This document shows, in pieces, positions 10,133-56,650 of a DNA stretch of 64,000 bases (within the stretch, counting starts at the first letter, position 1; each line of letters starts with the position of its first letter). A program made the position numbers and the translations under genes. The notes under the pieces are model-generated. The model did no database searches, was not told where the DNA came from, and saw nothing but the letters and a program-made list of their open reading frames with translations. The DNA comes from Clytia hemisphaerica (Eukaryota > Cnidaria > Hydrozoa > Leptothecata > Clytiidae), in assembly GCA_902728285.1 (NCBI GenBank), contig CACVBU010000491.1:124001-188000 (forward strand). Direction: 5' to 3'.

Positions 10133-10342
10133 ATTTGTTCAACTTTCGCTTTCGATTTTGATCACGGCTGCCATTTTGCGAATGCACATATACCGTTGTG
10201 CACATAAGTAATCTAAGCGTTCTAATTGGCTAGATTTTTACACAATCGAAATTTCAATAGAACAAAAGGCTTCCTAGCCTATATTTCTATAGCTGAATAC
10301 CGCAATTCTTATCCTCTTTTCCCAAATCTCTGGTACAACAAA

Positions 10343-10576
10343 GGAACGTAAATTTGTTATCCAATCTGTTCCAAAGTGAACTGTTTGAGAACGTTTTCTC
10401 TAGGGGAGTGCGTTCTGTTCACTTTCCTTCTCTTTTCGAGAACAAACAAGTCCTCTGTAAAGAGAACAAAGCGAGTTTTATTAATCACCCTATTTGTTTC
10501 CTTTGCGCGTTACATAAACTGTTCATATTGATCAGGGAACAATTTGTTCTTCTTAATGAGCAGAATAAATCGTTCC
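10343..10576. promoter_or_regulatory. GTTC/GAAC cluster upstream of recombinase copy 1
   Basis: About eleven GTTC or GAAC tetramers occur in 235 bp, several as TTGTTC/GAGAACAAA, with CTTTGCG followed by AACTGTTC at 10502-10523. A similar cluster including CTTTGCG...AACTGTTC lies at 44.86-45.03 kb, the same relative place in copy 2. Candidate recombinase or regulator binding sites; function inferred only. I see no gene between 10.13 and 11.17 kb. Confidence 0.45.
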
Positions 10577-11125
10577 TTTTGGCATGGATTGCATTTGTAC
10601 ACTTTTATTAAGGAATAATTAATACCTTAATGCAGGTTTCGATATGTACAATAGAAAAAGGATCGAATTCGTTATTGCCGCTGGGAAAAGAGTATTCTTT
10701 TTATGTAAGGTATAATTTGATTCCTTGGGCATTGGAAGATTATGTACCTAATTTAATTGTTATCAAAAGAACAGTTTTATCATTTCTTTTTACTACAGTT
10801 TAATGTATTTGTAGGAAAAAAAGTTTTTATTATAAGGAATCATTTTCTTTCTTACTAAAAGGTCCTTTTCGACACTAACAGTCTAAATCATAGTAATCCT
10901 TTATTGTTCGTAAATACTCCAAAGTTTAAGAACAAAAAGGGTTATGGTTCACATTATGTTGAATTCCTTAGAGAAGGAAAAGGCGGTAGAATGATAAAAT
11001 GCTTACTTCCCCCGGTTAATGAAAGAGACAATGAAAAAGCAAATTTTCTGAAGGTTGCAAAATAATTTGGATCGAATATAAAAGATGACCCCCTGCATTT
11101 AGTAATCAAAGCAAAATCTAAATGA

Positions 11126-11135
11126 TATAAAAAGG
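11126..11135 (+). promoter_or_regulatory. TATA-like box of recombinase copy 1
   Basis: TATAAAAAGG lies 43 bp before the ATG at 11169. Copy 2 has ATAAAAAGG at nearly the same distance from its ATG. Confidence 0.5.
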
Positions 11136-11168
11136 TCCTCTTATTAAACTTATTCATCAAGGGCGAGA

Positions 11169-13129
11169 ATGGCTCGCAGAAAAGTGCTCTTCGTAGACTG
11201 GCATTCGATCAATGGTTCAGCTAACGGGAAAAGAAAGTTGTCATTCGATGAAAACGAAAAAGGTAAATTCACTTGTCTAGCAAAGCTATGCCTACATTCA
11301 GACTTTGAAAGTAAAAGAGGTTTACGAAAACATATAGACAACAAACATCCTTGGTACTATTATTTTGACGAGCAACCAGAGGTGAAAAGGGAAGAAGTTG
11401 AACTAAACCAGCCTGCTGTCCAAAGAAAGGCTTCAAATAGTTCCAAGCCATACTATTCAATTGACGAGGGAATAGGAAATGCGTTTTATAAATGGCTAAC
11501 CACTACTTAGGAGGTAAAAATGATAGAGAAGCGAAACAGGTAGCTAAACGCGCTATGAAGTTTTTGATGAACAGTACTGGTGACAACGAGTCACTAGCTC
11601 CTTTATCTTATGAACTTGTTGATTGTTGTTTAGGCTCGACAACCATAATACTAAAGTTTTTGACTGTTTTAGAAGAAGAATAGAAAATGTCTTCTTCAGG
11701 AGCATTGAACTACGTAAAACCTATTTCTGATTTAATGGATTATAGAAAAGCATTTGGGATCAATGATAACAAATTGAGATGTTTCACAATCACCGAAGTC
11801 TACTTAAGAAGAGCTAAAGAGAACTTGAGAAAGAAAAAACGACTTGACAGCACCCGAAACTTTGATTTGGAAAATTTGATTGGTCGAGATAGTTGGGCGA
11901 GCCTTGAAAAAATGGAAACATTAATCCCGTATCACATCATGCACTACAGAGATATCATCAATAAATGCAAAGTCCAAGAGCCCCTACCAAACAAGCAGGA
12001 CTTGACATTTTGTACTCGTTTCATCACTACGTTTTTGTTCCTGAGAGTGAAGTGCAGCCGACCTATGACATTTCAGTATTTAACCTTGCAAATGATCGAA
12101 AAAGCCAAGAAAACAGACGGGTTTGTTGATCAAAGAGAATTCAAGACTGCAGGTAAATACCTTTTTGACACCCTCATCTTAACCGAGGACGTATTCACCG
12201 TACTCGACACGTATATAGACCTCGTACGACCCCTAATGAGTCCAATTTGTGATTATCTGCTAGTATCTACGACAGGACACCAATACAAATCTTTAACTAC
12301 TGCCATGACTCTACTTGTACATAAAGCTATAGGAAAGTACATTCATCCAACTCGATATCGACAGATCGTTGAGACTGCAAGTGCAGATAGATTATCGAAA
12401 TCAGAACAAGAAATCATTTCTGAAGACCAAAAACACAGTTCGGATGTTGCGAAGGTACACTACAAAAAGAAGCAATCGAGAATAGTGGCAACACAGGGAC
12501 AAATGTGCATGGAGAAAATGCTAGGAGCAGCACGAACAGATCAACAAGAGGCAATTTCTGAGGTAATTAGAGATTTAACATCAATATCGAAATCTTCCTC
12601 CCCTATGAATCTCAACCAAATGGCCGAACCTTCTTCTTCGAACAATGCTAATAGTAGTGCTACCCCTTTCATTGTTGAAACAGACGAAGAAAACTTTGAA
12701 TCCAACAACTTAGATGCCCAATGTAGAGAGGTAAACAATATTATGCAGCGTGTACAAAATATGTGTTCTTCAGTTGGTAATTCAAACGCCAGTCCTGATG
12801 ATTCTACTGACGTTCAAATGGAAATTATTAGCTCAGTTAAAGCATCGACACCTGCTCGCTCTCAAAAACGACCCATGTATGACAAGACAAAGATTAGCAA
12901 TAGTGTCACTGTCAAAAGAGAGATCGTCTCGAAGGAGGCTGGTAACAAGGAAGTTAAGTTCTCGCCAATGGAAGATAATATGCTTTTAAAAGGTATCAAA
13001 AGACACGGTGACAAAAACTGGGCTGCCATTATTCGAGATAAGGCTTTTGATTTCCACCAATCAAGAAGCCGTGATTCGTTGAGGGTACGTGCTGATTCTG
13101 CTGCTTTTAAAAAACTCCTCAAAAAATGA
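11169..13129 (+). pseudogene. Tyrosine recombinase with N-terminal finger and C-terminal Myb/SANT domain, copy 1
   Basis: Domains in order: an N-terminal Cys/His finger (FTCLAKLCLHSDF...GLRKHIDNKHPWYY), a helical core-binding-like region, a catalytic domain, a Ser-rich linker and a Myb/SANT-like domain (KFSPMEDNMLLKGIKRHG...W...SRSRDSLRVRA). In the long frame from 11687, candidate catalytic residues are R125 (CSRPMTF), K201, H220 and R223 (HPTR), H250 (QKHSS) and Y259 (VHYKKK). The nine-residue H-to-Y spacing is that of tyrosine recombinases. Lesions: a frameshift near 11.50 kb and a TAG at 11681-11683 where copy 2 has TGG (Trp). The catalytic half is uninterrupted. Predicted role is integration and excision of the host element. 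The recombinase assignment is inferred from residue pattern, not from a search. Confidence 0.7.
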
Positions 13130-13345
13130 ATCATTTTTTCATTTTTGTTTTAATTTATGAATTTTTATGGTTGCTTCACTCTTGTATTGTATAATAGCGT
13201 TCTTTGTAGTACGTAAAACATTGTAAAAAATATTTTGTAGTCAAAATCTTATATGTTTTCAATTCGATATTAAATTTTCAAACATTAGGAAACAATGCTG
13301 TGTTAAATTCATTTCTGCACTTTTTTTTAAGAAAACTTAATAAAA

Positions 13346-13754
13346 ATGGAATACAGTTCTACGTCGTCCAGTGAATCTGACTCGACTGTGTGTGAAAAAT
13401 TAAAAAGAGGTGACAAACGGAAAAGAAATTTTAGAAGAATAACTTTGAAAAGGGATCCACGAGAGGGGATGTGTCTTTTATTCGAGTGACGAAAAATCTT
13501 CAACAGAAAACAAAAATACAAACATTATTGAACTTAGCACTGAAAAAGAATTGGAAAATATTTCAATTGAAGTCTTATTGACTTCAACCACAAGCTTGGT
13601 ACCATTGGATAACAATGAGGATGAGCTTGAGAAATCCATATTGGAAATAGATTTGGAAAAGACGGTAAATGATATTTCAAAACCAAAACAGAAAAAAAAT
13701 GAAAAGCCAACAATGACCTATTTATATTCTTCTTTTTTTCCTTTTGCATTATGA
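13346..13754 (+). pseudogene. small Ser/acidic protein gene, copy 1
   Basis: It begins MEYSSTSSSESDSTV, passes a basic patch (KLKRGDKRKRNFRR), shifts frame near 13470 and continues with Glu-rich sequence (LDNNEDELEKSILEI) to a stop at 13754. It lies about 220 bp downstream of the recombinase on the same strand. A similar-sized gene with an acidic Ser-rich N-terminus sits in the same place in copy 2, which argues that it is a real third component. No known domain recognised. Confidence 0.45.
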
Positions 13755-13799
13755 AAGTGGGCGTTTTCTTTTTTAGATTTAGCTACTTCTAATTCTTCT

Positions 13800-13940
13800 T
13801 ACCCGTTGTTACTTGTTATTTCCTGTTGTTACACTTTTTCTGGAACTAAGTCAAATTGACCGAAAAAGTTAAGTCCAGAATCGAAAGTGCCTCTTGTTAC
13901 TCGTTGTTACCTGTTGTTACTTGTTGTTACCTTTTGTTGC
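13800..13940. repeat. irregular TTGTTAC repeat between the convergent genes
   Basis: About eight TTGTTAC/GTTGTTACC units surround a non-repeat core. It occupies the convergence point of recombinase and helicase, where copy 2 carries its 112-bp satellite. Confidence 0.6.
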
Positions 13941-15924
13941 TAAAAGTGAAAAGGGTAACGTCTTTTAGAATGTTTATTCTATTGATTTTCTCAAATGCTA
14001 ACTGGAATTGAACATTCAAGTTTTTCGAGTCACAGCTCGATTTAAGCGAATCTAGGTATTTACCAGGGCCATAGCAGAATCCCGGAATACAGGCTGTCCC
14101 TTTTAATCTATTAAATTTAATTACCAATTTTGTCAAACACGGTGACTCGATTTTGTATTGTGAAAAAATTCCTGAGATTAATTGAAGCCATCTTACCGTG
14201 TTAAATCTTGACAATTTATTGGAATTTTTTTCCACTCCTCCTCAGACAACTTTTGAAGTTGGTACAGTGCTCCGTCAATGCGATCTGGATGTGTGGTGAA
14301 AAGTGGATGTTTCTTTTCCCATCTCTGAGGGTCGTTTTCATCAGCTCCCAAGAAATACAAATTCATCTCGTGTTCTGTAAAGGTCAATTCAGCTTCAGAC
14401 GTCGTTTCTGATGAAGTTGATTCGCCGGCACTCTCACTTTCGAAGTCGGAATCTGCCAGTAATTGATCGACTAAACCGTCATAATCGTTGAAGACGGCGC
14501 CTGTGCGAAGTTCCTCTCGCTTTAGTCTGAATAGCTCTTGGTTCGTGCACGATTCGAAAAGAGGCATATCTTTTAGGACTTTTGCACAGTAATGGAATAC
14601 TTCCATACAGTTATTTCTCAGCCAGGCTAGAAAAAATAAAGGAAAATGCATTTTATAGTTAAACACACGATTATATAAAGCTGAAACAAATAAATATAGT
14701 CACCGAAAAATATATTAATTTGATTGATACCTTGTAAAACTCTCTTGGCGTCTTCACAGCTTAGCGAGTTGGATGTCCACTCATCCATGAACACTACTTC
14801 TGTTGAATCTTTTATCATGTGGCCGGCGAATCGGCCTTCTTGCGTGACACCTGCAATGTGTTCAGTTGAAATCAGCCCTAGGAGGTAACAAGTACATCAT
14901 ATGTAATAAATTCTACCACATGAAAGTTGGTTTTACGACATTCGAGAAAGCATCTTTAGTTCAAGCATTAAAAGGAAGATTTTGTATGAAATTTGGCGTT
15001 TCTTACCTTGTAGTGTGTAGAACCAGGTGGTTTTTCCTGAATTTGATTGTCCATGTAGCAACAGTTTTCGTTCTTTGATAGGAAACATCTTATGTAACAA
15101 CAATTGATAGAATTTTTGAAGAAATTTCACTCTCGTCTTCTGCTTGGGAAAACTGTTAAATATACCTGAAAATGCAAGAGATTTGGTTAGAAAAATGACA
15201 TTCAATTCATCTAATAAAAAGTTTATCTTTTGAAAGACATTTTCACTTGAGATCGCTTTAGCAAAGAAAAAATGTTGAACCTAGCTTGAAAAAAAGGTTA
15301 CCTCGGATGTCAGCCTTATACTCGTAACGAATAAGCGTTCACGGTGTGTGATCTGGTGCAAATTTCTTTATTTTTACAAAACGCTTTTCAGTTATCAAAA
15401 AACATGTACCATGTGGCAAAACTTCAATCACGTTGAACAGTCGTGTCATTGGTGTTATCAGTCCGCAATCTGGATCAGACAGCAATTCCGTAACTCTCTC
15501 AATATGTGGAGTCAACAGCTCGGCAATCTTTGTAATTTTCAGACATCTCATCAGATACTTCTTGATTTTCGTACACATCACGTAAGTAAACATACACTCC
15601 TTGGGCTTTTTGTAAACCATACCTTCACATATAGCGTATCCCTTTTTCTTCATATGCCTATCGATTTCTGCAATGGCTTGACAAATCTTGTTCTGTGGCT
15701 TAGGTTTTGATGGTACAGCGGCTAAAATTTAGTTTTTGAAAGCTTTCAGTTATAAATAACACATAACGTTGTTTCGAAGTCCACCTAACGTTTTTAGGAC
15801 ATTAAGAACGTTCTAAAAATTAACACTAAATATGATCTAATTTTAGGGTCCTGGAAATAGTTTTTTGAGCATTTTATTCTTAAATTATGTTATAAATATA
15901 TATATAGTATGAAAATAAAATGTT

Positions 15925-16138
15925 TTCTCCTGTCAGACCTACAAACAACAAAGAGTGGCCGAATTCTTTTTCCTCTTAGAGAGACGATGTTACAATGAAA
16001 GGGTAATTAGTCCTCTCTGGGTCCCTCTGTCTTTATCCTGGCTTGGGACAGGCTGACTGTCATTTAAGACAGCCAGGCGACATTACCCCAGCGGCCTGTA
16101 CAAGATGACAACAAACTCCAGGCAGACTGACAGGAGAA
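15925..16138. mobile_element. 214-bp MITE in a helicase intron
   Basis: TTCTCCTGTCAG at the left is matched by CTGACAGGAGAA at the right. The interior is richer in G+C than its surroundings and has its own inverted phrases (AGACAGCC). It lies in the intron between the 169-bp and 420-bp exons of helicase copy 1. Confidence 0.7.
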
Positions 16139-16919
16139 GAAAACAAAACATGAATCAACAAAGGTGTAAACACCTTAGACTCCTTTGGATATATATATAT
16201 CTGCTCTGCCACCCAAATCTCCTGAGTGAATATAGTTGGACAGAAATTCTTATTTCTTCACATATATATTCAAAATAAACATACCTCTATCAGAAGAATC
16301 GTCAACTATAGTGATGGAAAGACGTGTAAATTTGATGTCGTCCATTCCTTTTAACAGCTTTATCTTCACGTCTATGGGTATCGTTGGCCGAATGGATAGG
16401 GATGCTGGTACCTTGTCCTCTCCGACAACGTTCACGTCCACCGGTAGAGAGGACTAAAAATATGAAACAAACATTATAGAAATCTTGAACTTTTAAAACT
16501 TAATTATTTGAAATCAAAAACACAGTGAAATATAGAATTATAGGATTTGTTTATAATCAATCAAAAAATTGGGTGTAAGATAAATTTTTTTATTAAGGAG
16601 AGCCGTGTTGTTTTAGAGCGATGATAAGTTTGAAATTACGTACCTTATGACGCTTCATAGTTGCCTCAGAGAGCTTTAGATTGTAGAATTTGCATGCTTG
16701 CTCGATCATTTCTCTACGGTTGTAATCTTTCAATAGGGAGCTTAAGCAGCAGCAGTGGTGAGTAGAGGGAGGCGGTCGTAATTGAACACCGCCTTCAAAC
16801 AACCACCCTCGTCCAAAATATGATAAGCTTCGAAACATGGCAAAGCTTTAAAAAAAGGCGCGAAAAACATAAACAAATATGGCAGAGTTCAATATTCGAT
16901 TCACATCATAATAATCATA

Positions 16920-17875
16920 ATGCCAAGTTCTAGAGAGATTAGAGAAGCTCTTTTATTTGGTTACTATGATAATATTTTAGATGATCAAGAATTTTTGTTG
17001 TTGTATGACTTACATAGATCAAGAAACCCAGATTTTACATACTGGAGATATGCTGAATTTGACTTGTATAAGCTAAATGAAGATTCAGGTTCAAGAAAAA
17101 TGACATTTATATTTTGAAAGAACTTTTTCAAATACCATATGAAGTAGTTTGCTATAACAGATCAAAACTCAATGGTATTGAAGCGTTTTGTATTTTTTTG
17201 GGACGATATGCATATCCAGTAAGATTTGGATCCATGATACCAATTTTTGGAAGATCAGTTCCTGAGTTGTGCATGACTAATTATAACATTTTAAACCATA
17301 TTCATAATAACTATGGCAGACTTTTATCAGGATTTAATCATCCATGGATGTCTCCTGCATCTCTTGAAGAGTATGCTCATGTCATCCATAATAAAGGTGG
17401 TGCTTTAGATTTTTGTTGATGGTACGGTGAGACCAGTTAGTCGACCCGGACAAAATCAAAGAATTCTCTATAATGGACATAAACGTGTTCACAGCATTAA
17501 ATTTCAAAGTGTCGTTATCCCAAATGGACTTATAGCAAATTTATTTGGACCAGTGGAAGGGAAGAGACATGATGCAGCTATGCTGGCACAGTCTGGTCTT
17601 CTTGGGCAACTTCAGCAACATTCCCATGCTACAGATGGACGTATACTTTGTATATATGGAGACCCTGCCTACCCTTTGAGAAGGCAACTTCAAGCACCAT
17701 TTAAAGGACCTAGATTAACAGCCCAACAAACTGGTTTCAATAAAAGTATGTAAGAGTTTCTGTGGAATGGGTTTTTGGGGATATTGCAAATTTTTTCAAG
17801 TTCATTGACTTTAAAAAGAATCTCAAAGTTCGTCTGAGTGCTGTTGGTAAAATGTATTTGGTGTGTGTGCCTTGC
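16920..17875 (+). pseudogene. Harbinger DDE transposase, frameshifted
   Basis: The N-terminal part (MPSSREIREALLFGYYD) leads into the nuclease domain. Catalytic residues are seen as D in VDGTVRP, D in IYGDPAYPL and E in VEWVFGD, with NGHKRVHSIKFQ between the first two, as in PIF/Harbinger nucleases. Frame breaks occur near 17.10 kb, near 17.41 kb (short deletion just before VDGT) and near 17.75 kb. The source element is therefore no longer autonomous. Confidence 0.8.
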
Positions 17876-18521
17876 TGATTGTGATCCACCAAATATCAAC
17901 ACATATTTAGCTTAAATATATTTGCTGTTCTGACCTGTTTTATTAACTTGGATCTTATCATTTGTACATTTTATTTACCACTGTTGTTAGAAAAGAATCC
18001 TAATGTTCAACTTTCACTTTTTTTTTAAAAAGACATCAAATAAACATAAATACATACTGCGATAAAAATTACAAATATTAACATAGTAAAGCAAAAAAAA
18101 TTCAATGAAACACAGCTTTGGCTTTTTACTGAAAATTGATAAATCAATGAAATCAAAACAAGAAACACAATCTTTTCATAGGGACTGATAGGGACTAAAA
18201 AATAACCCTACAACATCTTTAAGTCTTAGGGCTTTACAGCACTAAAAGTTAAGGGAAAATCATGGTCTGCACTGCTATCACATACATTCAAGAACCATTT
18301 CTTAAAAAGTTGAGAGCAGTTTTTCAAAAGAAAAGAACAATATAAAACAATTTTTCTTAAAGCAAGATAATTTATCTAATGCTGTACTGGCACTTGTTCT
18401 AAGCGTTAAATGTGGTCCAAACAAGTTAAAAACAGTCTGACAGTTATAAACAACTCAGAGCTTAAAAACTACGTTCAAATTTTAGAACAACTGAAGTAAA
18501 TGTCAACAATAAAGAATAATT

Positions 18522-19517
18522 TCAACGCCAAGAAATTCCATTACAAAACCAACAATACAGTAATCTATTGTTTTTTGTGTCTCTAGCCATCAATAATTGG
18601 AGCATTGTCTGATTTTGTCTTTGCTGCTGATCTAACAATTTTTGCAAGTTTTCTTCACGTTTCGCAGCAATCTCAAGTTCTTTCTCCCTCAAAGTTTTAT
18701 CTATATTCATTTTCTCTCTCATAAAACACAACGTATCATCTCCTGATCTTCTTGTTCGTTTCGTTTTTGAATTTGATTCCATTGCTGGTTCATCGCCTTT
18801 TCTTTTGGTCGTCTCTGAGTGAGTCTCCATGCATTGCCTTCGCATTTCAGTTGCAGTTTCGCGTTCTTTTTCTGCTGCCCGATTATTCTCTTCACGTTCT
18901 TTTAGTGTTAAAAGCTCAATTTCTTCGAATTTTGAGACAATGTCTTCCATTGCAACCTCAAAATCAGTTGGTTCTTCTGGAGCTATTCCAGTTGCTTTTT
19001 CCTCATCTGCTTTTTTGCGCTTGAAATTTTTTTCCATCAATCCATATCGTTCTCGTACAGCACGGTGATTAACTGTAAACTTTGGGTCATCTAAAGTATT
19101 TAAAGTCTCTGCAATCAACTTCCACGACTCACCTCGCTGTGTGGTGCCACTCTTGTGATTGTAAGGTTCATATGTATATATTTCTCGTACCAGAATCTCC
19201 TCGTGTTGGTGAGTCCAGATCATGGGAGACCTAAGAATAGAATAAAAGAAAACTAGCAAGAATACCAGAAAACAAAGACACCAAAATCAAAAAAAAGTTG
19301 TTTTTGGGACAAAGCTGATTTTGTTTTGTTTTGATCTTCAGCTGTCTCGTTTCAAAAAGGGCAAAACAAAACAAAAAACAAGAAAATGAATGAAATGAGT
19401 AAGGCAACTGAAAAAAATCAGAAATTATTAAATACAAGTTGTGATGAGAATGTATACTAACTTTCTTTTTTGTTTTTGTTCAGCTGCTGCAACAGAAACT
19501 CCAACTTGTTCAGCCAT
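18522..19517 (-). CDS. Harbinger Myb/SANT-like DNA-binding protein
   Basis: Two exons (19517-19462 and 19230-18522) join in phase 2 with GT-AG borders, giving a protein of about 254 residues. An N-terminal Myb/SANT-like trihelical region (MIWTHQHEEILVREI...SWKLIAETLN) is followed by a KR-rich stretch and a long charged coiled coil with many Glu/Arg heptads, ending MARDTKNNRLL. Family knowledge: Harbinger elements encode a Myb-like partner that takes the transposase to the nucleus and to the ends. No lesion is seen, unlike its transposase partner. The start is chosen at the upstream ATG because the splice phase fits. Confidence 0.75.
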
Positions 19518-19740
19518 TTTGTTTGAATTTCTGCACGTTTTCAAGAGAACGTCATTTCAGAGAATTGAAGTCTCAAGATTTCGTGGAACGGCTTTCGCAA
19601 GGGGTTTCCCCTGTTCTGAGCATGCGCAGTGATTATTTGTTCTCTCGAAGACCGCCCACGAACGCCACCGCCGCCGCTGCTTAAGCTCGCTAATGTCTGA
19701 AAGAGCGCTGCGGAGTAATATTCGTCACTTCTGGTTTTGT

Positions 19741-20506
19741 CTGAAGAGTAAGAAGAATTCAAATGAATACATTTTTTGAGAATTTATTCACAACCCTACT
19801 TTGATAGAAGTATTTCAATGTTATTTATAAGAGCAAATAAAGAACATTTTAAAAGCTTTGCAGACTCTAAAAACACCCAAATGTTTAGAAAAATTGGTAA
19901 ATATACTCAAAAAATGTGAAAATAAGAAAATTCTTAGGCTCAAAAATCAAAAAGTTAACAACATTTGAATAAGGCTTCAAAAATATTTTGGATGTTCTCA
20001 TAATTTGCAATAAAGTAAATTTTCAGCTTTAGAATAAATTTATTTGAATCGTTGTTTTTGCCACTTTTTGTGCAAATTTATTCGATGGAAAGGGCTTATA
20101 AAGGTCAATTTTCAAATGTTCTAGGGGATGGGGGTTAAAACCAGTGGGACACTTTTATATGAACAGGGAACCTTTGAGGGACATCTCACGAATAGAGAAG
20201 TTTGTCATTGATTGTTTTTTACCATATGCTTACTTTATTCCATTTTGAGCTTATAGTTTTGAACACAGTGAAGTCTTGTTGTCTCGTATTTTAGATAGAA
20301 CTTTGCATCGCTTGACTGGAGAATTTTAAATTTGTTCCTCAAAGATTTGATTTATAAAGCTTATAAGTGAACCACAACCTTAATTTGTGAGCGCGATTTT
20401 TGCTCTGAAGAATTTAATGCGTGATTTTTAGAAAATGTAGCCATCTTGTATAAAAGTATTGTTGAAACAACCTCTGAATTCTTGTGTTCTAATATTCTTT
20501 TTTAAG
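19741..20506. other. AT-rich gap, no gene seen
   Basis: I looked here for the missing first helicase exon (counterpart of MSDSESSEEQEKK in copy 2) on the minus strand and did not find it. Confidence 0.5.
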
Positions 20507-20782: not shown

Positions 20783-23464
20783 TTTATTGTTTCTTCACGT
20801 AAAAGGATTTTTAAAATGGTGATGCCCAAGATTTGGCAAATAAAATTTTAAGGCCCGAACATCGCCAGTATTCGTTGGAAAACACTTTTTCATGATTTTG
20901 TACATAATGAAAAGTCTGGCATATCTTGAATATCATGTGAATATCATGAATTCTGGCAATTTTTATCCATTGATTATTTATTTTCCCTGTTAATTTGCTC
21001 GTCTTTGTCAGGTAGGTCCAATTAGCATCGGGCTTGTTTTTTATATAGGTAGCTAAATCTCGTTTCTTGACACTCTTGAGTTCTAGGATTTGATTTTCTT
21101 TGTTGGTCTTTTTAAATTATTAATAAGCTTAAATACTTTTGATCAATTTCAAAAATTGATTTTGTTTTCCATTGCAAGTATTTCATCAGTCGACAAACGT
21201 TTAATGGAAAAGGGTTGCTGCCTTAAGAAATTTTTCTTGAAAGAAAATCGCGAAGTACAGTTACAAGAAGTCAGATCCGTAGCTGACTCAGCAAAATTTA
21301 TCATTTTCGATATTTCAAGAAATGGAAGTGGCAAGCTTGTTTTAAATCAGTTTTTATAAAAAGGTTTGGTGAAGTTAAAGAACCTACCATAAGAACGGAT
21401 GTAAGGAAGGAACTAATTTGTTTAAAAATATGAAATTTCCAAATATTAGAAAATCGTACCTAACACGCACATCACGCTTTGCCTGAAGAATGCACCAGTA
21501 TGAAAATACGGTATATATTTTGTAATTAGTTAAACCGACACAAATAAAAATTGAAACTTACAGTGCTAACGGGTCTGAATTGTCAAGAGTGCCTTCATCT
21601 AGCATGTCCTGTAAAAGAATTATAATTTGGCAAAAATTTAAGAAATGTTTAAGTATGTTTCGAGGTTGCAGAAATTATGTTTGGTGGAATTCAACTTTCT
21701 TTGAAGGAAGTACGTAAAACTGACTGAAACGCATTTATCTTGGTGTATAATTTGTACTCTTAGGTGCCGTGGGGAGGGGCACATTTATTAATTTTTCGAT
21801 TTTTTCAAACCAAAACAAAGTCTCTTATTTATCTGTGAGTGAAAAGCCTGTTTTTTAGCCCAATTTTGTCCAATTGCAGTGTTTTTACCAGTTGAAACCC
21901 ACCCTCATTTATTAAAACTTTTGAAATCTTCCACTCATTTATTTTGACCCCCTCGTTTATTCAGCACCTGAGTATATACACTACTTTATTTATTGGCTGG
22001 AATCTTAATTTTTTGTTTCTTTCTTTCCATGAGAAGATTTTTTTTGTCTATACTATATTTCATGACATAAAATTCAGTGGACAGGTGAGATGTTTTTATA
22101 GTCACAGTACAAAAAAACAACATTTTTTCACCTTACTAAGCCAGTAATGTTAAGGTGGTTTTTATCGATGTCAAAAACACATACTTTTTCGGCCAAATTG
22201 TGAACATTAAGGGTTAAAATGCTGAAGGTCGCCATTCGCTAAAGTTAATTCACTTTTGTAAAACTCAAAGGGGAAAACAAAAGAACTAAATAACCTTGAA
22301 AAAATCAATCCAAAATTGCGAGGAGTACCCTCTAAGTTTGCTCCACCAAGTCTCGATTCGCTAAAAAAAAAGGATAAGAAGGATGTCATTTCAAAAATAT
22401 TTAAAGTGTATAAACCTTAAACATATAGTCAGGGGCTAAAGTTAGGATATTTGGCACAACCTATACATGGAGTATAAACAACATTTTATTGCTGGGATTG
22501 ATAGTTGGGACCCTTAGGATCATTTTAAGCCAGAGTGCCATTTTTCTAAGGTTGAGCATTTTTCAAAATGGCGGATTTTTGCAAAAATCCAAAAATGTGA
22601 AAATTTTAAGTTCTACAAATATTGTCATATTATATACCGTTGGGAAAGGAAATTTCAAGCTCAACAACTTTTTTGCTTACATCAAAAACTAAAAATGTAC
22701 TCAAAGTGAGAAAAATGTCAAAAACGATGACGTCATCATTTTCATTTTTCAATTTTTTCTTTGGACATAGGCATGTGACACACCGTTGGAAAGGAAATTT
22801 CAGACCGAACAACTTTTCTGCTTACGAGAAACGATGAAAATGTACTCAATGTGACTCAAAACGGAAAAAATGATAACGTCATCATTTTCACTGTTTTAAG
22901 TTTTTCTCTAACCTTATACACGAGACGTGTATCATATGAAACAGGAATCTGAAATGAAATCTCTTTTATTTGTATTGAGAGCTAGAAACGTACACAAAGT
23001 GAGTAAAGATTTTCCAGTAGTTTAGTCTTTTTTTCCTTTATAATGTTAAATTTGAGTTTGTTATCACGTTGAAAAGAAGTTGAGGTTTTTTCATGGAGTT
23101 CAAATGTTGTCGCTTTTTATCTTTAGTGAAAAAGAAAGAAAATAGAATAGTAGAAAGATCAAAATGGAGGAAGAAACAGAAGGAAATGAAGGAGAAATTC
23201 AAAAAGTTTGCTGCTTTAAGAACGTTCTCGAAAATTGTAAGAAGAAAGAGCATTATTAGTGGAATTAACTCAAAATCGACTATCAATAGTCAAAAGGCAA
23301 GTCGAAAACGTAAATATAACCTCGATTTATTTAGTGGAGAAGCAATGAAATTTGTTCATAAAGAATGTCTTCTAGAGTATACATCTACAGACCATATTCA
23401 GAGACATAAACGTAAAACTTCAGACAGCCATCAACCTGCAGCAAAACGGACCAGGAGATCTGAT

Positions 23465-23665
23465 GCAATTGACTTCTTTGAAGATTTTGGTATCATCAGC
23501 AAACAGTAGGATCAATGAGATGACCTTTTCAGGGAGATCATTGATGTATAGCACGAACAGTATTGGTCCCAGTACACTACCCTGTGGAATACCACTCACT
23601 ACAGGGTCTGTAGTCGAGAAGGACTGGTTCACTTTTACTGATTGTAAGTTAAAGTTAAATCTGAC
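23465..23665 (-). mobile_element. 201-bp internal fragment of a non-LTR reverse transcriptase, 9-bp target duplication
   Basis: The minus strand encodes [21 protein letters not shown] and [10 protein letters not shown], i.e. reverse transcriptase motifs including the ADD catalytic box of Jockey/CR1-type LINEs. AGATCTGAT occurs at 23456-23464 and 23666-23674, directly flanking the fragment. Neither a poly-A tail nor either end of a LINE is present. Confidence 0.8.
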
Positions 23666-25799
23666 AGATCTGATATTCCAAGATTGAAACAAGAGGATAT
23701 TTCTAAAGTTAAATTAACACAACCGAAAATATCTTACTTCAAAGGAGTGAAAAACCCTCCAATGCCAAAAGACTTCAGCTTAAACCAACCGCTTTCATTG
23801 ATAGTATTCTGTAAACAAGTTATCCTCCCTGAAAGAGCTAATCACGAAGACTTTCAGTTTATCAAATCCATTTTGCTAAAGGATAGCTCACCAGATTTCA
23901 ACGGCTATAATACCCAAGGCATTAGAACTAAAGGAGAAAGCTGAAAGCCTAAAACCAAAGTTATGTTCATCTCCTTGTTAGACCAAACACCTTCAGATCC
24001 ATCGACAGTTCTTACCACAATGTTGGAGGCAGAGAGAGTTACCAACAATGCAGGCCAGGTTATCACTGTATTTACCGCTGACCAACAGCTTTATCGAGTT
24101 GTGTTGGACGTTATTTGGACAGGTCCAGAAAGATTTAGCAATTTCGTGCCTAGAATCTGTGGAATGAACTGGATCATGAGTTTTATTGGAAGTATCGGGA
24201 TCTTAATGCAGAATAGTGGTTTGCTTCCTTGGTTGAAAAGTGCCTTTGGTGGTGTGGAGAAAATGCTACTTGGCAAGAAATTCCCCATGAACGTAAGGGC
24301 GCTAAGATTCGCTATGCTAGAAATTCTGAGAGGTCCCGTAGAACATTTGGATTCGTTCGTTGCTTTCACCGAATTCCTTGAATCCTTTTGTACAGAAAAT
24401 AAGCAGGAGGAGAATGAAAACGAGGAGAATGAAAAAGAGGAGGATGAGAATGAAGAAGAAAACAAACTTACGAAACACTGGGTCGTAAACTTCATTAAAC
24501 CAGTGCTACTAATACACCTATATATTCGAGCCGAACGTGAAGGTGACTTTGCACTCCACCTATACACATGCCACAAAATAATGCCTTATTTCTTTGCATC
24601 GGGTCATATGAATTATGCTTGTTATGGAATCTGTTACCTCAGAACTCTGCATAAACTTCCAAAATGTATTCTAGAAGCTTTCATGAGAGGAGAGCCTGTC
24701 ATGCGACATCAAGATGGAATATGGAACGGAATTTGGAGTGATATGATGATCGAAACGACGTATATGAGGTATGGTAAAGGACCTGGAGGAATAATCGGTG
24801 TAACAACACAATCAAGAACGGTACAAATTCGGACGGAGAGTTTACCAGCTTGCACGGAGGTCTTGAAGGATCTCAACGAAGTGAGAGGAAAAAACTCTAA
24901 AGTTAAAAGTTCTCATAAAGAAGAGTCTAACACAAGAATTGAAAATGACTTAAAAGATCGTATCAAATTGAGGGATGCCTTACAGTTATGTGCTCACCCT
25001 TTCGATCCAGAGTCCAACAATCAAAATCTTCTCATAAACAACTACACGGGTGAGATTGCCCCTGATGAGTGCAATGTTCAGAGGTCTCTGAAAATTGGCG
25101 CAAAACAGTTATCCAATTTCGTATCTCATCTTCCTACTGGTTTCTACAGCACTATTCAAAAGAAAGTTGTTACAATGGCAAGCAAACCCAAACGCAAGGA
25201 TTCCACTGAACATGAAATGTACAACACTGAAATGTTATACTCCCGTGTCATGTGCCTTTTGAGCGTTGATCAAATTTCTCTTGATTATTTATTCAAATAT
25301 GAACTATCACCGATTCCACTTTCGATGTTTAAATCCACTGGAGAAGGCAGATTCCCTTCCAACAAGTCTTCTTTAAAAAAGAAGCTTAAAGTAGAAATTT
25401 CCAAAAGAAACATCAAATCGGATGCAATCATCATAGATGGGTGCGCTGCTTTATACCATGTACACTGGCCTAAAGAAGCAAAAGTCTCAGATTTTGTCGA
25501 CTCTTTTGTTCAATACATCGCAAAATTCCTTCAACACAGCACGGTTTTCCTCATCTTTGATCGCTACAGAGACTACAGCATAAAAGGACAGACAAGGTTG
25601 AAACGCCTAGGCAATCATCTCCGCACGCATGTATTGACGTTGGAAACACCGCTACCTCCCAAAGAAATGACTTTGAAGTCTAGAATCCAACTAAAATCCA
25701 GCTGATCAACCTGATTTGCGATTCACTTCTCAACCACTTCACAATCAAAAAGTGTCAACAAACATTGTTCATAGCCAGTCAAGACGATATTGTACTGAA

Positions 25800-33845: not shown

Positions 33846-33937
33846 CTAAGTATAAGTAGTTTTAAAATGGCACTAATCAGCCACAGTACTAACAAGCCAC
33901 GGTACTATTGCATGTATTACACACCCAATGTATCCCT

Positions 33938-40972: not shown

Positions 40973-41640
40973 TTCAGCCCATTCATTTTTGAAAAATTAT
41001 TGAAAAAATAGCAAAGTCTCGTTTTTCATTTAGTGCGCATGTCTCTGTTAGAAGACTATGACCCATTCTCTTTCTGATTTGATATGATGCAACTTAAAAA
41101 TTATCCGATATTGACAAATGGACGGGCTACCGGGCTACCAAGCAATTTCAAGCTAAAACCGATGGGCTACGAGCGGGCTACCATCAAGGTAGCCTATTCA
41201 TTTTTGAAAAATTGTTTACAAAACAGCGAAGTCTCGTTTTTCATTTAGTGCACATGTCTCTGATAAAAAACTATGACTAATTCTCTTTCAGTTTTGATAT
41301 TACGTCACAAATAAGTTATCCGATGCTGACAAATGGACGGGCTACCGGGCTACCAAGCAATTTCAAGCTGAAACTGATGGGCTACGAGCGAGCTACGAGC
41401 GGGCTACCATCAAGGTAGCCCATTTTTCAAAATTTGTTGAAAAAACAGCAAAGTTTCCATTTTTAATTAGTGTGCATGTCTCTGATAAAAAAACTATGAC
41501 CAATTCTCTTTCTGATTGATATGACGTCACTGAAAGTTATCCGAAATTGACGAAATTGCTTGACTACCAAGCAAATTTAAGATAAAACCGATGGGCTACG
41601 AGCGAGCTACCATCAAGGTAGCCCATTTGTGGAAAAATGA
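40973..41640. repeat. three tandem copies of a ~219-bp unit
   Basis: Each unit contains a poly-T/CATTTAGTGC phrase, ACTATGACYAATTCTCTTTC, TTATCCGA and a GC-rich block (GGGCTACCGGGCTACCAAGC, GATGGGCTACGAGCG, ATCAAGGTAGCC). It lies just upstream of the zinc-finger/transposase pseudogene. Confidence 0.85.
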
Positions 41641-43406: not shown

Positions 43407-43757
43407 TGGGATAAACTTTCGCGAGGATTTAATTTCGCGATTGGGCCTACCCGCGAAATTTAAAAATTTTGCGGGGACTTAATTTCGCGGGTGGCATTAT
43501 TGGGTGGCAATATTTTCACGATTTTGTGACTTAACTGTCAAATCGTGCATTTTGGTTGTTGAAATACTCATTATTAGCACTTCTTTGATGCCAGTAAACA
43601 TTCAAAAAGTATTTGTTTGACAAATTTTCAGTTTTGTTTAGAAATATTTCGCGGATGAGGCCTTTCCAAATTTCCATTGAGACTTAATTTCGCGGATGAC
43701 ACCCACGATGACATCCGCGAAATCAGCAAAATTTAATCCCCGCGAAAGTTTATCCCA
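43407..43757. mobile_element. 351-bp MITE, TTAA target duplication
   Basis: TIRs TGGGATAAACTTTCGCG and CGCGAAAGTTTATCCCA, with ATTTCGCG(G/A) phrases repeated inside, are flanked by TTAA on both sides, as for piggyBac-type elements. A relative of the TTTCGCG phrase occurs near 56.69 kb. Confidence 0.85.
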
Positions 43758-45469: not shown

Positions 45470-47339
45470 ATGGACAGCTCTAGAAGACTTTGTGTAAATT
45501 GGAAGTCTCTAGAAGGCGCAGCTCACGGGAAAAGACCATTGATCATTCGTCCAAATAACCAAGGTTTGTTTACTTGTCCTATAAGACTTTGTTTACACGC
45601 CGACTTCAAAAGTAGCCGTGGTTTGAGAAAACATGTATCGAACAAACATCCGTGGTACTACTTTGATCCCCAACCAGTGGTAAAACGTGAAGAGATGCAG
45701 AGAGCTATACCGAAAAAGAAAGCAGTTACAGCTGGGAAACCTGTTTTTTTTCCTTAGAAGAGGGAATCGGACTTCGCTTTGTGCTATGGTTGTGTACTTC
45801 TTGTGGAGGAGGAAAAAACCGAAAGGATGCCCGGCATATCGCCAAAAGAGCTATGAAGTTTTGTATGCACGCCCTCGGGAATAACGAAAGTGATAACGAT
45901 CTAACTGAGGAATTCGTCGATTGTTGCTTGAGTTCCACTTCTATATTCATTTCTTTTTTGAAACTTTTAGAGGAAGAATGGAAATTAAGCTCATCTGGAT
46001 CATTGAATTACGTGAAAGCAATTAATGACTTTGTGGATTTTCGAAAATCACACGGTGTTCCGGATAGCACGTTACGTTGTTTTACCGTCGTAGAAGTCTA
46101 CCTACGCCGAGCAAAGGAAAATTTAAGCAAGAAAAAGAACTTTGAGTGCAACAGAAATCTTGATTTAGAAACGCTTATAGCGAGAGACAGTTGGGCATCC
46201 ATCGAAGAAATGGAGGCAGTAATCCCTTACCATATGCAATCATTCAAACAAGTGATACACAAGTGCACCTTAGATGACGGTTCAAGGATGTTAGCAAAAG
46301 GTGATTTAGTTTTTTCAATTCGCTTCATCACAACACTTCTTTTTTGAGAGTTAAGTGCTCAAGACCAATGACTTTCCAATTTCTTACCGTCGCCATGATA
46401 AACAAGGCTCGTGCTAATGGTGGTTTTGTTGATCAAACCGAGTTCAAAACTGCTGCAAAATACATTTTTGATACCTTAATTATTGATGATGATGTTTTGG
46501 CTTTGATCGATCTATATTTAGTGCATATTCGGCCACGTCTCATCCAAAGTGCGAATATTTACTATTGTCGACGAATGGAACCCAATTTCAATCTTTAACG
46601 ACATCCATGACAATGCTTGTCCACGAAGCAATAGGTAAATACATCAATCCAATCCGATATAGACAGATTCTAGAGACTGAAAGCAGTGAGCGATTGTCAC
46701 TTGAGGAACAGCACTACATTACTGAGGATCAAAAACATAGTTCTCAAGTAGCAAAAATCTATTATAAAAAGAAACAATTTAGAGTTGTTGCAATCGAGGG
46801 CAAAAAGTGTATGGAGAAAATGACATCACGTTCTGCACATAATGGAAATTTGCTACATTTGTTCACTAATATTGATCTCACATATGACAGTGAAGTTTTA
46901 AAGAAAAGTCAACATATAATCTCAGACGTTGCTTCAAGTAGCTCTGCACCAAGCAATCCCATGGATCAATTGAATATAAACAGCACATGACCCTTATCAA
47001 CCTGTAGTCGAGGCTGATGACGCAATGGATTTGGTGATTACCGAATCTCAAATTGATGAGAAAAATGGAAAAGTTGCAGGCGTGCCATCTTTAAATGTGC
47101 AAGCCAATGAACATGTCATTAAAAATGAACTTTCAGAAGCGGGCAGTAAGTCTTGCAAAAACGTTAAGTTTACTGCTGAAGAGGATCGTTGTTTGAGTGA
47201 GGGAATCAAGAAATATGGCAAAACCTCTTGGGCTTTAATTCTTAAGGACAAGGCACTTAAATTTCATGAATCTCGATCTAGAGATTCTCTGAGAGTTAGA
47301 GCAGGAAGTGTAGCATTTAGAAAACTACATTGTACCTAG
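45470..47339 (+). pseudogene. Tyrosine recombinase with finger and Myb/SANT domain, copy 2
   Basis: Clearly homologous to the gene at 11.17-13.13 kb over its whole length: N-terminal finger (FTCPIRLCLHADF...GLRKHVSNKHPWYY), a helical region (SSSGSLNYVKAINDF), R in CSRPMTF, H/R in NPIRYRQ (H replaced by N), H in QKHSS, Y in KIYYKKK, and a Myb/SANT-like end (KFTAEEDRCLSEGIKKYG...SRSRDSLRVRA). Frameshifts: T8 run near 45.75 kb, T6 run near 46.34 kb, near 46.55 kb and near 46.99 kb. Two are single-base changes in homopolymers. The replacement of the first H of HxxR, if real, would add to inactivity. Confidence 0.7.
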
Positions 47340-47503
47340 TATTTTCATAATATATGGTTTTTGAGAAAACAATATAATCTTTTCAAACTAAGAGTCTCAA
47401 GAGGGTTCTGAAGCTCTTTTTTGTTCACACGAGAAATGCTTATAAGTAGGTTTGTCATGTTTCTATCTCTCTTTCTCGTGTTCAGTGTTGGAAATTTGCA
47501 GAC

Positions 47504-47899
47504 ATGACTGATAGTTCCATCGATATCTCAGATTTTTCTTCTTCGAGTGAAGATATTTCAGAATTCTCGTCTTGCAACGAAAAAACTTCTTCAGAAATGG
47601 AAAATATTCCAGAGACAGATTGTGAAGAAACTGAACCTTCTCACAGTCCTTTAGAGTCAGTTCAAGATATTTGTGTGCTTCAAGAGTTTTTCAAAAAAAC
47701 ATCCCAAGATCAAATCCTTTTCAAGACATTAAATAATGAGACTAGTCTCGTTGAAATTGACGAAAACCCAATAATCGAAGAGTTTATTGAAAAATACAAA
47801 GATGATCAGAATGTAATTGAAATCAATTTAATTACTCACATTTTTTCTAATTTTTTTTCAATAAATTTGTTACTTTCTTTTTACTTGTATGATAACTGA
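47504..47899 (+). CDS. small Ser/acidic protein gene, copy 2
   Basis: 131 codons without lesion, starting MTDSSIDISDFSSSSEDISE and rich in Ser, Glu and Asp throughout; a hydrophobic C-terminus (FFSINLLLSFYLY) follows. It starts 165 bp after the recombinase stop on the same strand. Copy 1 has a similar but frameshifted gene in the same place. The last residues run up to a MITE, so the true C-terminus may have been altered by that insertion. No known domain. Confidence 0.5.
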   Translation: MTDSSIDISDFSSSSEDISEFSSCNEKTSSEMENIPETDCEETEPSHSPLESVQDICVLQEFFKKTSQDQILFKTLNNETSLVEIDENPIIEEFIEKYKDDQNVIEINLITHIFSNFFSINLLLSFYLYDN

Positions 47900-47916
47900 T
47901 GATGGCGTAAGCCGAA

Positions 47917-52854: not shown

Positions 52855-53425
52855 AATAAAAATGGAGAGAAAAGATGTCACGATCTAGATCCGCATCTGC
52901 TATCACAAGTCTCTGAAGTATTACCACATGTTGTAACGTATAGTTTCACCCTACCTCACCATGTCACAATCTTTTAGGCTGAAAAACTGTCAAGATCTAG
53001 ATCCGCATCTGTTATCACAAGTCTCTAAAGAATCACCACATGTTGTAACGTATAGTTTCACCCTACCTCACCATGTCACAATCTTTTAGGCTGAAAAACT
53101 GTCAAGATCTAGATCCGCATCTGTTATCACAAGTCTCTAAAGAATCACCGCATGTTGTAGCATATAGTTTCACCCTACCTCACCATGTCACAACCTTTTA
53201 GGCAGAAAAACTGTCAAGATCCAGATCCGCATCTGTTATCACAATTTTCTAAAGAATTATCACATGTTGTAGCATATAGTTTGACGCTACCTCACCATGT
53301 CACAAACTTTTAGGCAGAAAAACTGTCAAGATCTAGATCCGCATCTGTTATCACAAAGCTCTGAAGAATTATCACATGTTGTAACGTATAGTTTCACCCT
53401 CTCACAACATTTTAAAGTGAAAATC
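52855..53425 (+). repeat. 112-bp satellite, about 5 copies (second block)
   Basis: Same unit and orientation as the block at 48.31-49.31 kb. It ends about 10 bp from the helicase stop codon (53435, minus strand). The two blocks were probably one array split by the insertions between 49.3 and 52.8 kb. Confidence 0.95.
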
Positions 53426-53434
53426 ATTCAACAT

Positions 53435-56400
53435 CTAGTCGGACTGGAAGGGATCCTCATTGTCGAAGTCGTTATATATGGCACCTTCTCTGTCTTTTCT
53501 GATTTCGATGTCGTTTGCAAAGAGTTTCTCGTCCCTGATTTGCTCTGCGACCCAATGGAAAACCTCCATACAATTCCTCCTCAACCAAGCTGAAACGTGA
53601 AGTACAACTTCATGAAGAGATTATTTGCATCACAAGGATATAGCTCAAAATATACAAGCATACTGAACGCAAACAGCCTATTGTCATAGTAAAAACGGTT
53701 GATATAAATATTTATTCTTGAATAAAGACCCTGGACATTTTGCAGTTAATTCTATTGGCATGGAACTTACCGCTGACGGCAGGATCTTTCTTTTCCTTCA
53801 ACGTTGCCGTTCTGAAAATTGCCAGACGCTTTTTTAGTGCCAGCCCATCGTCACCACCGCCAAAGTCTGGGAATTCATTCGTTGTAATAAAAAAGCCACT
53901 GTTGTAGTGGCAGGAAGTGACGCTCTCGTGTATCTTTAAAAAAACAAGATAGACAAATGGATCATAAACAACCGAAACAAGATTGGCCATGCTCAGGATT
54001 TTTCTCAAAAAATAACAAAACAGCCAACAGAACTGTGCTGGAAGAAATTAAATGTTGTAATTAAGAACAAGATTGAGGAAAGGATCGGAAGCTTAGAGCT
54101 TATTACCTTGTAAGATGCGCTTAGCATCCTCACAGGACAATGACTCTGGTGTCCATTCATCCATTACAATGACTTGCGTGTTTTTATTGACATCAGCTGC
54201 CGAAAATCTTCCATCAGGGACAATGCAGCTGATGAACTTCGATGGGACGAGTCCTAGTATGAAAGTAAAATTATCTTTTGAATTCTGTTGAGACACGAGG
54301 ATAGAGACGGAATGGGAACATGGTTTAACTGGAGCTCACCTTCCATTGGACAGAACCAACTGCTCTTGCCACTGTCGGGTGGGTCAACCAATATCAATTT
54401 TGCCTCTTTCTTTGGAAACTGTTGGTGGAGAAGTATTTGATAATATTTGACCAAGAACTCCTTTCTAATTGCCGGGTTGGGGAAGCTGTTTTCTATGCCT
54501 GAAAAAAAGGAATGAGAGTTACTCCTGATGGCGCCACTGTTGACTGAAATGATGTCCACGACCCTCAAGTGTGCAACAGAAGAAGTATAAAAAGGATTAA
54601 CAAGAGTAGTAAACATACCTTCGATAAAGGGCTTCGGATTTGGAATAGCACGGTGATCATAATTGACAAAGGAGCGCAGAGAGCCTTTCAGTTGTGGGTT
54701 GTTTTCGAATTTCTTCTCTCTGATGTTGAAATAATAGCCCTTTTTCACTTCCACATAATTGTAATCGACAATTAAATTGGGCAGAATACGGCAGTCTGGT
54801 TCTTGCAACAAGCGAATTACTTCAAAGTACGATTGAGCAAGCCCGTCAGCAACGTAAGGATTCTTGAACATCCGTAGCACAAATGATTTGACACTTTTGT
54901 AAGAATAATAAGTGGATTTGGACTCTGGTATGAGCTTGTGCATTGTGAGCTTGTCCCATTGTGCATGCGGCAACTTGTCTCTTGCATCACTCGTTTGACA
55001 ACATCGATACCTTTGCATAATTTGCTAGTCGGCCTCAAACCGTGCAATCCCGGCGGGGCGGCTAGTAGTGAGTAAAAGAAAATAGAGAGTTAGATACACC
55101 GTTACTGCCTTATTTAGGTTAACATGGTAGCATTATTATTCTAAACCCAAAAAAATGATTTCAAGTGCCGTAAAAGTTAAGGAAAAGTTCATACCATTTG
55201 AATGCTTTTCAAGAAGCCTGAAGTCGACGGTGAATTGGCGCAATTGATGAATACCATCTTCGATAATATTTCTCCCAAAACAGTTTGTTGCTAAATAGAT
55301 ATTAGCTGGCTTTATGTTTTCGTCCACAGGGATATCGTCTACTTGTTGTCCTTGTTCTGTGGCCTTTTGTCGGTCAATCCGCATTTTATTCAGTATTATT
55401 TTCTGCAAAGGTTCGGCAAGGTTGTGGTCCTTCAAGACAATGTACAGTTGCCTTGAGGAAAATTCCACAATTTTCTCGATGCTGGCACCTAAGAAAAATG
55501 AAAAAAAAAAATAATTGAAAATTAAATTTCGCATGCTTTTTCTCCTAAAAGTTGTGACAGTATGAAACAAGGCGTAATTAACGGTAACAACGTGTGGCAA
55601 TTTTTTGAAAACATGTGACAAGGAAATTTTACAAAGTTTTTCTCGTAAAAGTTGCGACAGTGTGAAACAAGGCGTAATAAACAGTAACAACGTGTGGCAA
55701 TTTTTCAAAAACATGTGACAAGGAAATTTTCCAAAGTTTTCCTCCAAAAAGTTGTGACAGGGTGAAACAAGGCGTAACTAACGGTAACAACGTGTGGCAA
55801 TTTTTCAATAACATGTGACAAGGAAATTTTCCAAAGTTTTTCTCCTAAAAGTTGTGACAGTGTAAAACAAGGCGTAATTAACAGTAACAACGTGTGGCAA
55901 TTTTTTGAAAACATGTGACAAGGAAATTTTACAAAGTTTTTCTCCTAAAAGTTGCGACAGTGTGAAACAAGGCGTAATTAACGGTAACAACGTGTGGCAA
56001 TTTTTTGAAAACATGTGACAAGGAAATTTTACAAAGTTTTTCTCCTAAAAGTTGCGACAGTGTGGAACAAGGCGTAATTAACAGTAACAACGTGTGGCAA
56101 TTTTTTGAAAACATGTGACAAGGAAATTTTACAAAGTTTTTCTCCTAAAAGTTGCGACAGTGTGAAACAAGGCGTAATTAACGGTAACAACGTGTGGCAA
56201 TTTTTTGAAAACATGTGACAAGAAAATTTTCCAAAGTTTTTCTCCTAAAAGTTGTGACAGGTTGAAACAAGGCGTAACTAACTGTAACAACGTGTGGCAA
56301 TTTTTCAAAAACATGTGACAAGGAAATTTTCCAAAGTTTACCTCTTCCGTTAAGGACGGTACACGTAGCAATGTTAAACCCACTCGTCATGATTTTCTTG

Positions 56401-56540
56401 CAGATGAAGTGCTCGTATTTATGGGCCGTCATTTCTGGACAGTCCAATGCCAACCAAACTGCAAAGCCAGTAAGGTTTCTTCGTGCTTTTCCATTGCAGT
56501 TCTTCTTCTCTTGCTCTTCTGAACTTTCACTATCAGACAT
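53435..56540 (-). pseudogene. SF3-type helicase gene, copy 2, seven exons
   Basis: Exons: A 56540-56342, B 55488-55195, C 55061-54619, D 54498-54340 (159 bp), E 54253-54107 (147 bp), F 53933-53771 and G 53589-53435, about 515 residues. Introns are phase 1. N-terminal residues MSDSESSEEQEKK are acidic. Exon D holds Walker A (PPDSGKSSW, with D in place of the usual first G), E Walker B (VIVMDEW), F motif C (FFITTNEFPDFG) and G the end (AWLRRNCMEVFHW). Lesions: a frameshift inside exon C near 54.97 kb, and exon F is one base out of phase with E. Predicted AAA+ SF3 DNA helicase acting on the element's DNA. The family assignment rests on the A-B-C motif order and spacing. Confidence 0.75.
55530..56335 (-). 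repeat. 100-bp satellite in helicase intron 1, about 8 copies
   Basis: The unit (minus sense) contains AAACATGTGACAAGG-type and GTGTGGCAATTTTT-type phrases in inverse. Because 100 is not a multiple of 3 and stops are rare, long ORFs appear in every frame; these are not genes. The minus-strand unit reads LPHVVTVNYALFHTVATF, similar to LPHVVTYSFTLPHPLTTF from the plus strand of the 112-bp unit. Confidence 0.95.
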
Positions 56541-56610
56541 TTTATTTTTGTAAACACACACCTTACTACAGCGCGTGTTTGTGTGTGACAAATCAATGAA
56601 ACTGCTCTCA

Positions 56611-56650
56611 ATTTATAAAATTTTGTTCACTTCGCAAAGAGAACAAAAAA
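56611..56650 (-). promoter_or_regulatory. putative helicase promoter with GTTC/CTTTGCG motif
   Basis: On the minus strand TTTGTTCTCTTTGCGAAGTG is followed by GAACAAAA and a TATA-like TTTTATAAAT about 75 bp before the ATG. CTTTGCG next to GTTC also occurs at the other end of the element and in copy 1. Confidence 0.4.

Follow-up and report, generated by a model that had tools for sequence, protein, structure and literature searches.

We analysed a 64,000-nucleotide stretch of the hydrozoan Clytia hemisphaerica (the window; contig C341, positions 124001-188000, in a 417-Mb assembly), in which a first-pass annotation had described two copies of an element with three genes: a tyrosine recombinase (YR), a superfamily 3 (SF3) helicase and a small acidic protein. 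Both copies, here called A and B, are decayed, and complete relatives lie elsewhere in the genome. Relatives are named below by contig (C77, C853 and so on), and the features of the two copies are the following, in window coordinates.

10333..20003, + strand: copy A, decayed element, homologous to its sibling at C77:265167-274752
10333..11168, +: region 5′ of the copy A YR gene; the equivalent region is rich in GAACAA/TTGTTC in siblings
11169..13129, +: copy A YR gene, with C2H2-like finger, YR domain and C-terminal Myb/SANT domain; decayed by one frameshift plus stop codons
13346..13700, +: broken remnant of the copy A small acidic gene, open in siblings C77 and C853
13790..13940, +: remnant of the copy A tandem array, unit rich in GTTGTTAC; in siblings the array is large and inverted
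14196..16734, −: exons of the copy A SF3-type helicase, with Walker A at about 15040 and Walker B at about 14800; B′/C exon deleted
45470..47340, +: copy B YR gene, decayed, in several frames
47504..47899, +: copy B small acidic open reading frame (ORF), 131 aa
48292..49332, +: copy B tandem array, 112-bp unit
52867..53438, +: copy B second array of a 112-bp unit, oriented as the first, adjoining the helicase 3′ end
about 53438..56540, −: SF3-type helicase of copy B; by eye about seven exons, three of them covered by NCBI model P0121
54257-55024, 54096-54255 and 53770-53936: Walker A, Walker B and sensor 1 (ITTNE) of the copy B helicase
55508..56407, +: tandem array, 100-bp unit, in an intron of the copy B helicase
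56633..56683, +: candidate decayed right end of copy B, then the decayed tip of a miniature inverted-repeat transposable element (MITE)

Alignment to C77 showed that copy A lacks about 195 bp of its left end, and that an unrelated 3-kb insert (16734-19692) splits its helicase region; the exon bearing motifs B′ and C is absent. The end proposed at first pass, 19.7 kb, is slightly short, since homology to C77 reaches 20003. Within the insert, one ORF is Myb/SANT-like (PF12776, E 0.005, below cut-off), and a reading frame of Harbinger-like DDE type can be made out by eye.

For copy B, a right end at 56633-56683 is plausible from its local alignment score (34, against 32 for the largest of 200 shuffles), and no left end was established, the local score there being only 20 against a shuffle mean of 21 and a maximum of 28. 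The YR genes of the two copies are 65% identical in DNA over 1.3 kb. The first-pass annotation had the same three genes in the same order and orientation in both: this holds for the YR gene (+) and the convergent helicase (−), whereas the acidic gene matches in position only, the ORF of C77, the sibling of copy A, having no significant similarity to that of copy B.

The recombinase and the helicase

The YR domain was identified from motif conservation and profile comparison and not from scans of single proteins, since Pfam and PHROGs scans of single YR proteins did not name it. One search returned 996 relatives at E ≤ 0.001. Among the 120 of them listed, the catalytic residues are kept almost without exception (R299 in 119, K327 in 120, R399 in 119, H424 in 119 and Y433 in 118), in the canonical order R, K, R, H, Y, with a box II that reads TxxR rather than HxxR and an H424-Y433 spacing of 9, which is the spacing of H270 and Y279 in XerD. 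When the YR profile was compared with five Escherichia coli YRs by hhalign, the catalytic region was aligned with an E-value of 0.02 (0.26 and 0.38 for unrelated controls), R399 falling on XerD R247 and the alignment ending before H424/Y433. These results support the earlier naming of the first protein as a recombinase and, as far as they go, speak against one of the two refuting conditions set at first pass, a first protein without recombinase fold. The first catalytic arginine may be R294 or R299, five residues apart.

Outside the catalytic domain, each of the four residues of the N-terminal C2H2-like pattern is found in 104-105 of the 105-106 ungapped relatives (Pfam matches are weak), and Pfam detected the C-terminal Myb domain in 22 of 23 members. 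The same Pfam scan found no match to the Crypton domain DUF3504 in the 23 YRs. A second, unrelated YR gene lies in the window at 35656-36840 (− strand), with a DUF3504 (Crypton-type) match at E 7e-8 in 36232-36840 and, by eye, a GH...Y spacing of 9 in a downstream ORF; it has no similarity to the YR described here. The Clytia protein P0001 is 100% identical to the YR gene of C77, and YR relatives in EukProt include proteins named TCONS, which resemble transcript models.

The helicase was read against the general definitions of the SF3 motifs A, B, B′ and C. All four were recognized by eye in the Clytia copies and their relatives: a Walker A GxxxSGKT/S, a Walker B hhDEW, a B′ motif QGGL...QKH and a sensor 1/motif C ITTN. 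A profile search returned 142 relatives at E ≤ 1 (120 listed), some of them on contigs longer than 1 Mb. In six relatives hand-chosen from the 142, the NCBIfam model TIGR01613 (P4-type primase C-terminus), which we take to be of SF3 type, matched five, including Clytia P0226, with E-values of 6e-5 to 5e-3, below curated cut-offs. Among ten chosen relatives, DUF5906 matched two (E about 8e-6) and Parvo_NS1 four (E 0.013-0.037), and PPV_E1_C weakly matched P0121 (0.026), a Clytia hemisphaerica protein model that corresponds to part of the copy B helicase; these matches too are below curated cut-offs. Separate exon pieces gave no SF3 match in Pfam, and exons compared with PHROGs gave one weak replication-initiation match (0.19). 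The motifs, together with these sub-threshold family matches, agree with the SF3 assignment made at first pass.

Gene pairing, ends and target sites

Across the genome, three YR queries merged to at least 153 loci and one helicase query to at least 83, both counts being lower bounds. At 51 of the 83 helicase loci a YR lies within 15 kb and the two genes converge, the helicase being downstream; of the others, 3 are divergent, 1 is in tandem and 28 are unpaired. Uniform placement would give about 0.9 pairs in any arrangement, a figure qualified by the interdependence of loci within a repeat family; the pairing nonetheless spans subfamilies, and in a clade of YRs 31-35% identical to that of copy B, 13 of 18 loci are convergent with a helicase. 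The two genes are thus neighbours in other copies, the opposite of what the first-pass annotation would have taken as a refutation, as far as one species, Clytia, shows.

The copies also share borders. Siblings aligned with their flanks have common sharp ends, the left end being CCTTAATGTAGTTGATTTTATA and the right end ...GATGATATG, with a 5-bp core, CCTTA, common to both. In fuller form the left end reads TACCTTAATGTAGTTGATTTTATA and the right end ...GAACACTATTTGATGATATG with CCTTA after it, close variants occurring at both. A genome-wide pattern search retrieved 37 right ends (0 in the control) and 71 left ends (6 in the control). A YR lies within 6 kb downstream of 52 of the 71 left ends, and TA precedes all 15 non-tandem left ends that were read.

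At least 15 of the 37 right ends abut a MITE tip, a lower bound because the tally was drawn from the 100 listed of 600 matching places. In 12 others the core coincides with the core of a left end, that is, copies are joined head to tail. Six elements were read through into the right flank, where each has a MITE about 320-460 bp long (tips such as CCTTAAGGGTATTAATTTTCGCG). TA stands beyond the far tip of this MITE in five of the six, as it does to the left of the element, so that removing the element leaves a TA-flanked MITE; C672 is the exception. Elements 97.5-98% identical to each other sit on different MITE subfamilies (C308, C321). Because right ends fall on MITE tips or on left ends of other copies, sharing CCTTA, integration is, as judged from these junctions, site-specific and Crypton-like. 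By eye, the MITE tip resembles the left end of the element beyond the core, which would explain why both serve as targets.

We considered whether the MITE belongs to the element and rejected this, since the MITE ends in two tips of its own, outside which TA is found, and since near-identical elements carry different MITEs.

The 600 places mentioned above match the right-end/MITE-tip pattern with at most 2 mismatches. Most of the listed one-mismatch places read TACCTTA, the sequence of a free MITE tip, which makes many landing pads look unoccupied. The window contains an unoccupied, TA-flanked MITE-like copy with CCTTA tips at 58349-58681, like the target, and a TTTCGCG/CGCGAAA cluster at 43417-43741 that is probably another MITE copy. 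The joined flanks of the C207 element match C822:56244-56366 at 99%, over the left flank only; this locus is possibly an allele without both MITE and element, a candidate that we do not claim.

Between matched ends, 37 left-to-right spans were found, some of them nested (C421, C817). Thirty-four contain a YR and three do not. A helicase was detected in 17 of the YR-bearing spans (9.6-22.5 kb), and the other 17 are without one (5.8-14.8 kb); ten helicase-less elements were confirmed in fetched sequence, six of them up to the right end. Copies of helicase-less subgroups are mostly 97.5-99% identical outside arrays. The 97-99% identity of siblings outside arrays and the TCONS proteins of EukProt suggest that the family was active recently. 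The C77 element, examined in full, is a DNA element with a YR and no reverse transcriptase inside, and besides the YR it holds no ORF longer than 200 aa, hence no capsid-sized gene (no search with capsid models was made).

Tandem arrays follow most of the YRs read, with a unit that depends on the subfamily (102, 109, 126-129, 190-225 or 112 bp). A forward array meets a reversed one in C853, C77, C207, C672, C599, C374, C508 and C403; the reversed array of C788 and of C423 is found past the helicase exons, and in copy B both 112-bp arrays point the same way. Between the YR stop and the array, C77, both C853 elements and copy B have an acidic ORF of 60 aa or more, and none was found there in C207, C672, C599, C374, C508, C308, C788 and C423; C403 was partly masked in this survey. 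Between the left end and the YR, GAACAA/TTGTTC occurs 6-17 times in each of the 17 stretches counted (siblings and copy B, copy A being outside the count), against means of 0.5-2.7 under a Markov model. The count exceeds the largest of 200 simulations in 15 of the 17, the two others being 853 and 853a; several stretches are close siblings, and the left limit of copy B was assumed. At 40976-41627 the window has 215-bp repeats that by eye resemble the 221-bp array unit of C374-type elements, perhaps the array remnant of a third element.

Among the other features of the window, inverted repeats of about 370 bp surround a 586-aa ORF (23945-25705; weak DUF6589 match, 0.044) at 22457-26564, perhaps a DNA transposon. 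Inverted repeats of about 1 kb, 87% identical and 2.4 kb apart, lie at 27733-32044, a tandem array of a 19-bp repeat at 33286-33950, and a long inverted repeat with 316-nt arms, 97% complementary, at 60083-61053.

A transposon that may copy its circle

The gene pairing, the ends and their core, the MITE-tip and tandem junctions and the arrays are direct observations; from them we infer a circle, its replication, an origin and use of the helicase in trans. We consider it likely that they represent a Clytia DNA transposon family of about 6-22 kb that moves by tyrosine recombination and whose helicase copies the excised circle. The YR would excise the element as a circle through the 5-bp CCTTA core common to both ends, and the circle would integrate at the CCTTA in the tip of a TA-flanked MITE or in the left end of a copy already in place, so that pairs of copies arise head to tail. 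We propose that a circle recombines with a CCTTA target because of the CCTTA junctions, the single core per tandem pair and the presence of near-identical elements on different MITEs; the excision as a circle put forward at first pass is consistent with such junctions. Full members encode a putative SF3-type helicase transcribed toward the YR, which most likely melts an origin, perhaps in the tandem or inverted arrays or in the GAACAA-rich region. Host polymerases would then copy the excised circle before it re-integrates, and helicase-less members may borrow the helicase in trans. A stronger version, in which the element is an animal integrative replicon, that is, a non-viral circle excised by its own YR, copied by its own SF3 helicase from an inverted-array origin and re-integrated into MITE-tip landing pads, is one that we offer tentatively.

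Several results weigh against the transposon with a circle-copying helicase. The hhalign probability is low (2.4), and this alignment puts XerD R148 on R294 (R in 114 and K in 6 of the 120 relatives) and not on the better conserved R299. The YR profile found no YR structure in the PDB, where sequence searches return Myb domains; the helicase profile found no SF3 chain there, its matches being unrelated proteins, many of them with a P-loop. The SF3 model matches all stay below curated cut-offs, and other P-loop families score similarly on the same helicase proteins (MMR_HSR1, 0.0033 in P0127). Beyond ten of the 37 right ends, no listed MITE tip and no listed left end follows; one of the ten, in C628, is probably joined to the left end of a subfamily like copy B, 608 bp ahead of the YR there. 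Finally, a helicase is undetected in half of the YR-bearing spans, and the existence of helicase-less elements with the same ends implies that spread does not require a helicase in cis.

This last point, with the near-identity of helicase-less copies, which indicates that they spread recently, is also what speaks for a Crypton-like YR transposon of the plain kind, with the helicase carried as accessory cargo that acts, for example, on recombination intermediates or in host replication and does not copy the circle. The convergent pairing persists, however, between YRs only 31-35% identical, so that the pair looks old and selected, and the SF3 helicases known elsewhere are replication proteins; we regard cargo as a possible but doubtful explanation. 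Descent from an integrated, now decayed DNA virus related to Polinton-like viruses appears unlikely to us. Some of these viruses encode an OLV11-like YR and several members also an SF3 helicase, according to PMC4642659, and the Clytia helicase does resemble SF3 models from viruses and plasmids. Most of the 9.6 kb of the complete C77 element is nevertheless filled by its YR gene, its acidic ORF, its arrays and the exons of its helicase, with no room for a capsid-sized gene (no search aimed at capsids was made), and IMG/VR, scanned once with the YR and once with the helicase, gave no relative. The virus-like replicon offered as an option by the first-pass annotation thus becomes less likely.

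A composite of element and MITE moved by a Tc1/mariner transposase, with the YR as a passenger, we hold to be very improbable. Its model would be MarCry-1_FO of Fusarium oxysporum, a Crypton fused with a TA-type transposon within one set of mariner ends and having TA target duplications (described in PMC3212892), and the TA flanking MITE plus element in five of six cases speaks for it. Unlike MarCry-1_FO, the Clytia elements insert repeatedly and site-specifically into separate MITEs; elements 97.5-98% identical on different MITE subfamilies, and head-to-tail arrays sharing one CCTTA, require insertion into a MITE or another copy.

On balance we read the family as a novel variant among YR DNA transposons, with a helicase that probably replicates the excised circle. 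Its nearest known counterparts are described as YR DNA transposons with a proposed circular intermediate, the Cryptons (CryptonF, S, A and I; Kojima and Jurka 2011, PMC3212892); the fungal and oomycete ones carry terminal direct repeats of 4-6 bp, and that paper reports no such repeats for animal ones. The Clytia element, a YR DNA transposon with CCTTA at both ends, has such short terminal direct repeats. It differs from Cryptons in its YR, which lacks a DUF3504 match and has the N-terminal C2H2-like finger and the C-terminal Myb domain, and in adding an SF3-type helicase gene, internal arrays and insertion at MITE tips; the word ‘helicase’ is absent from the main text of the Crypton paper. 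Endogenous nimaviruses of crustaceans, as presented in PMC10871703, have a YR with a C2H2 domain and insert in telomere repeats or 28S rDNA; their genomes are very large, one reaching 579 kb. The Clytia family is like them in its YR with C2H2 and in using one kind of repeated target, a likeness in described features. Scans of prokaryote genomes found no relatives. In the titles and abstract openings retrieved from the open-licence literature, a scope outside which subscription journals and Repbase lie, no non-viral eukaryotic YR element with an SF3 helicase was described.

To our knowledge, it is an open question by what means YR DNA transposons multiply when their transposition is not replicative. 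A YR element with a replication-type helicase of its own suggests an answer that can be tested, namely to replicate the circle. Assays of excision, target choice and replication are feasible, since the family is plentiful in a model jellyfish kept in culture, includes near-identical copies and has sharp ends as well as a defined target. The family may also bear on the origin of the YR and SF3 gene sets found in some virus-like elements.

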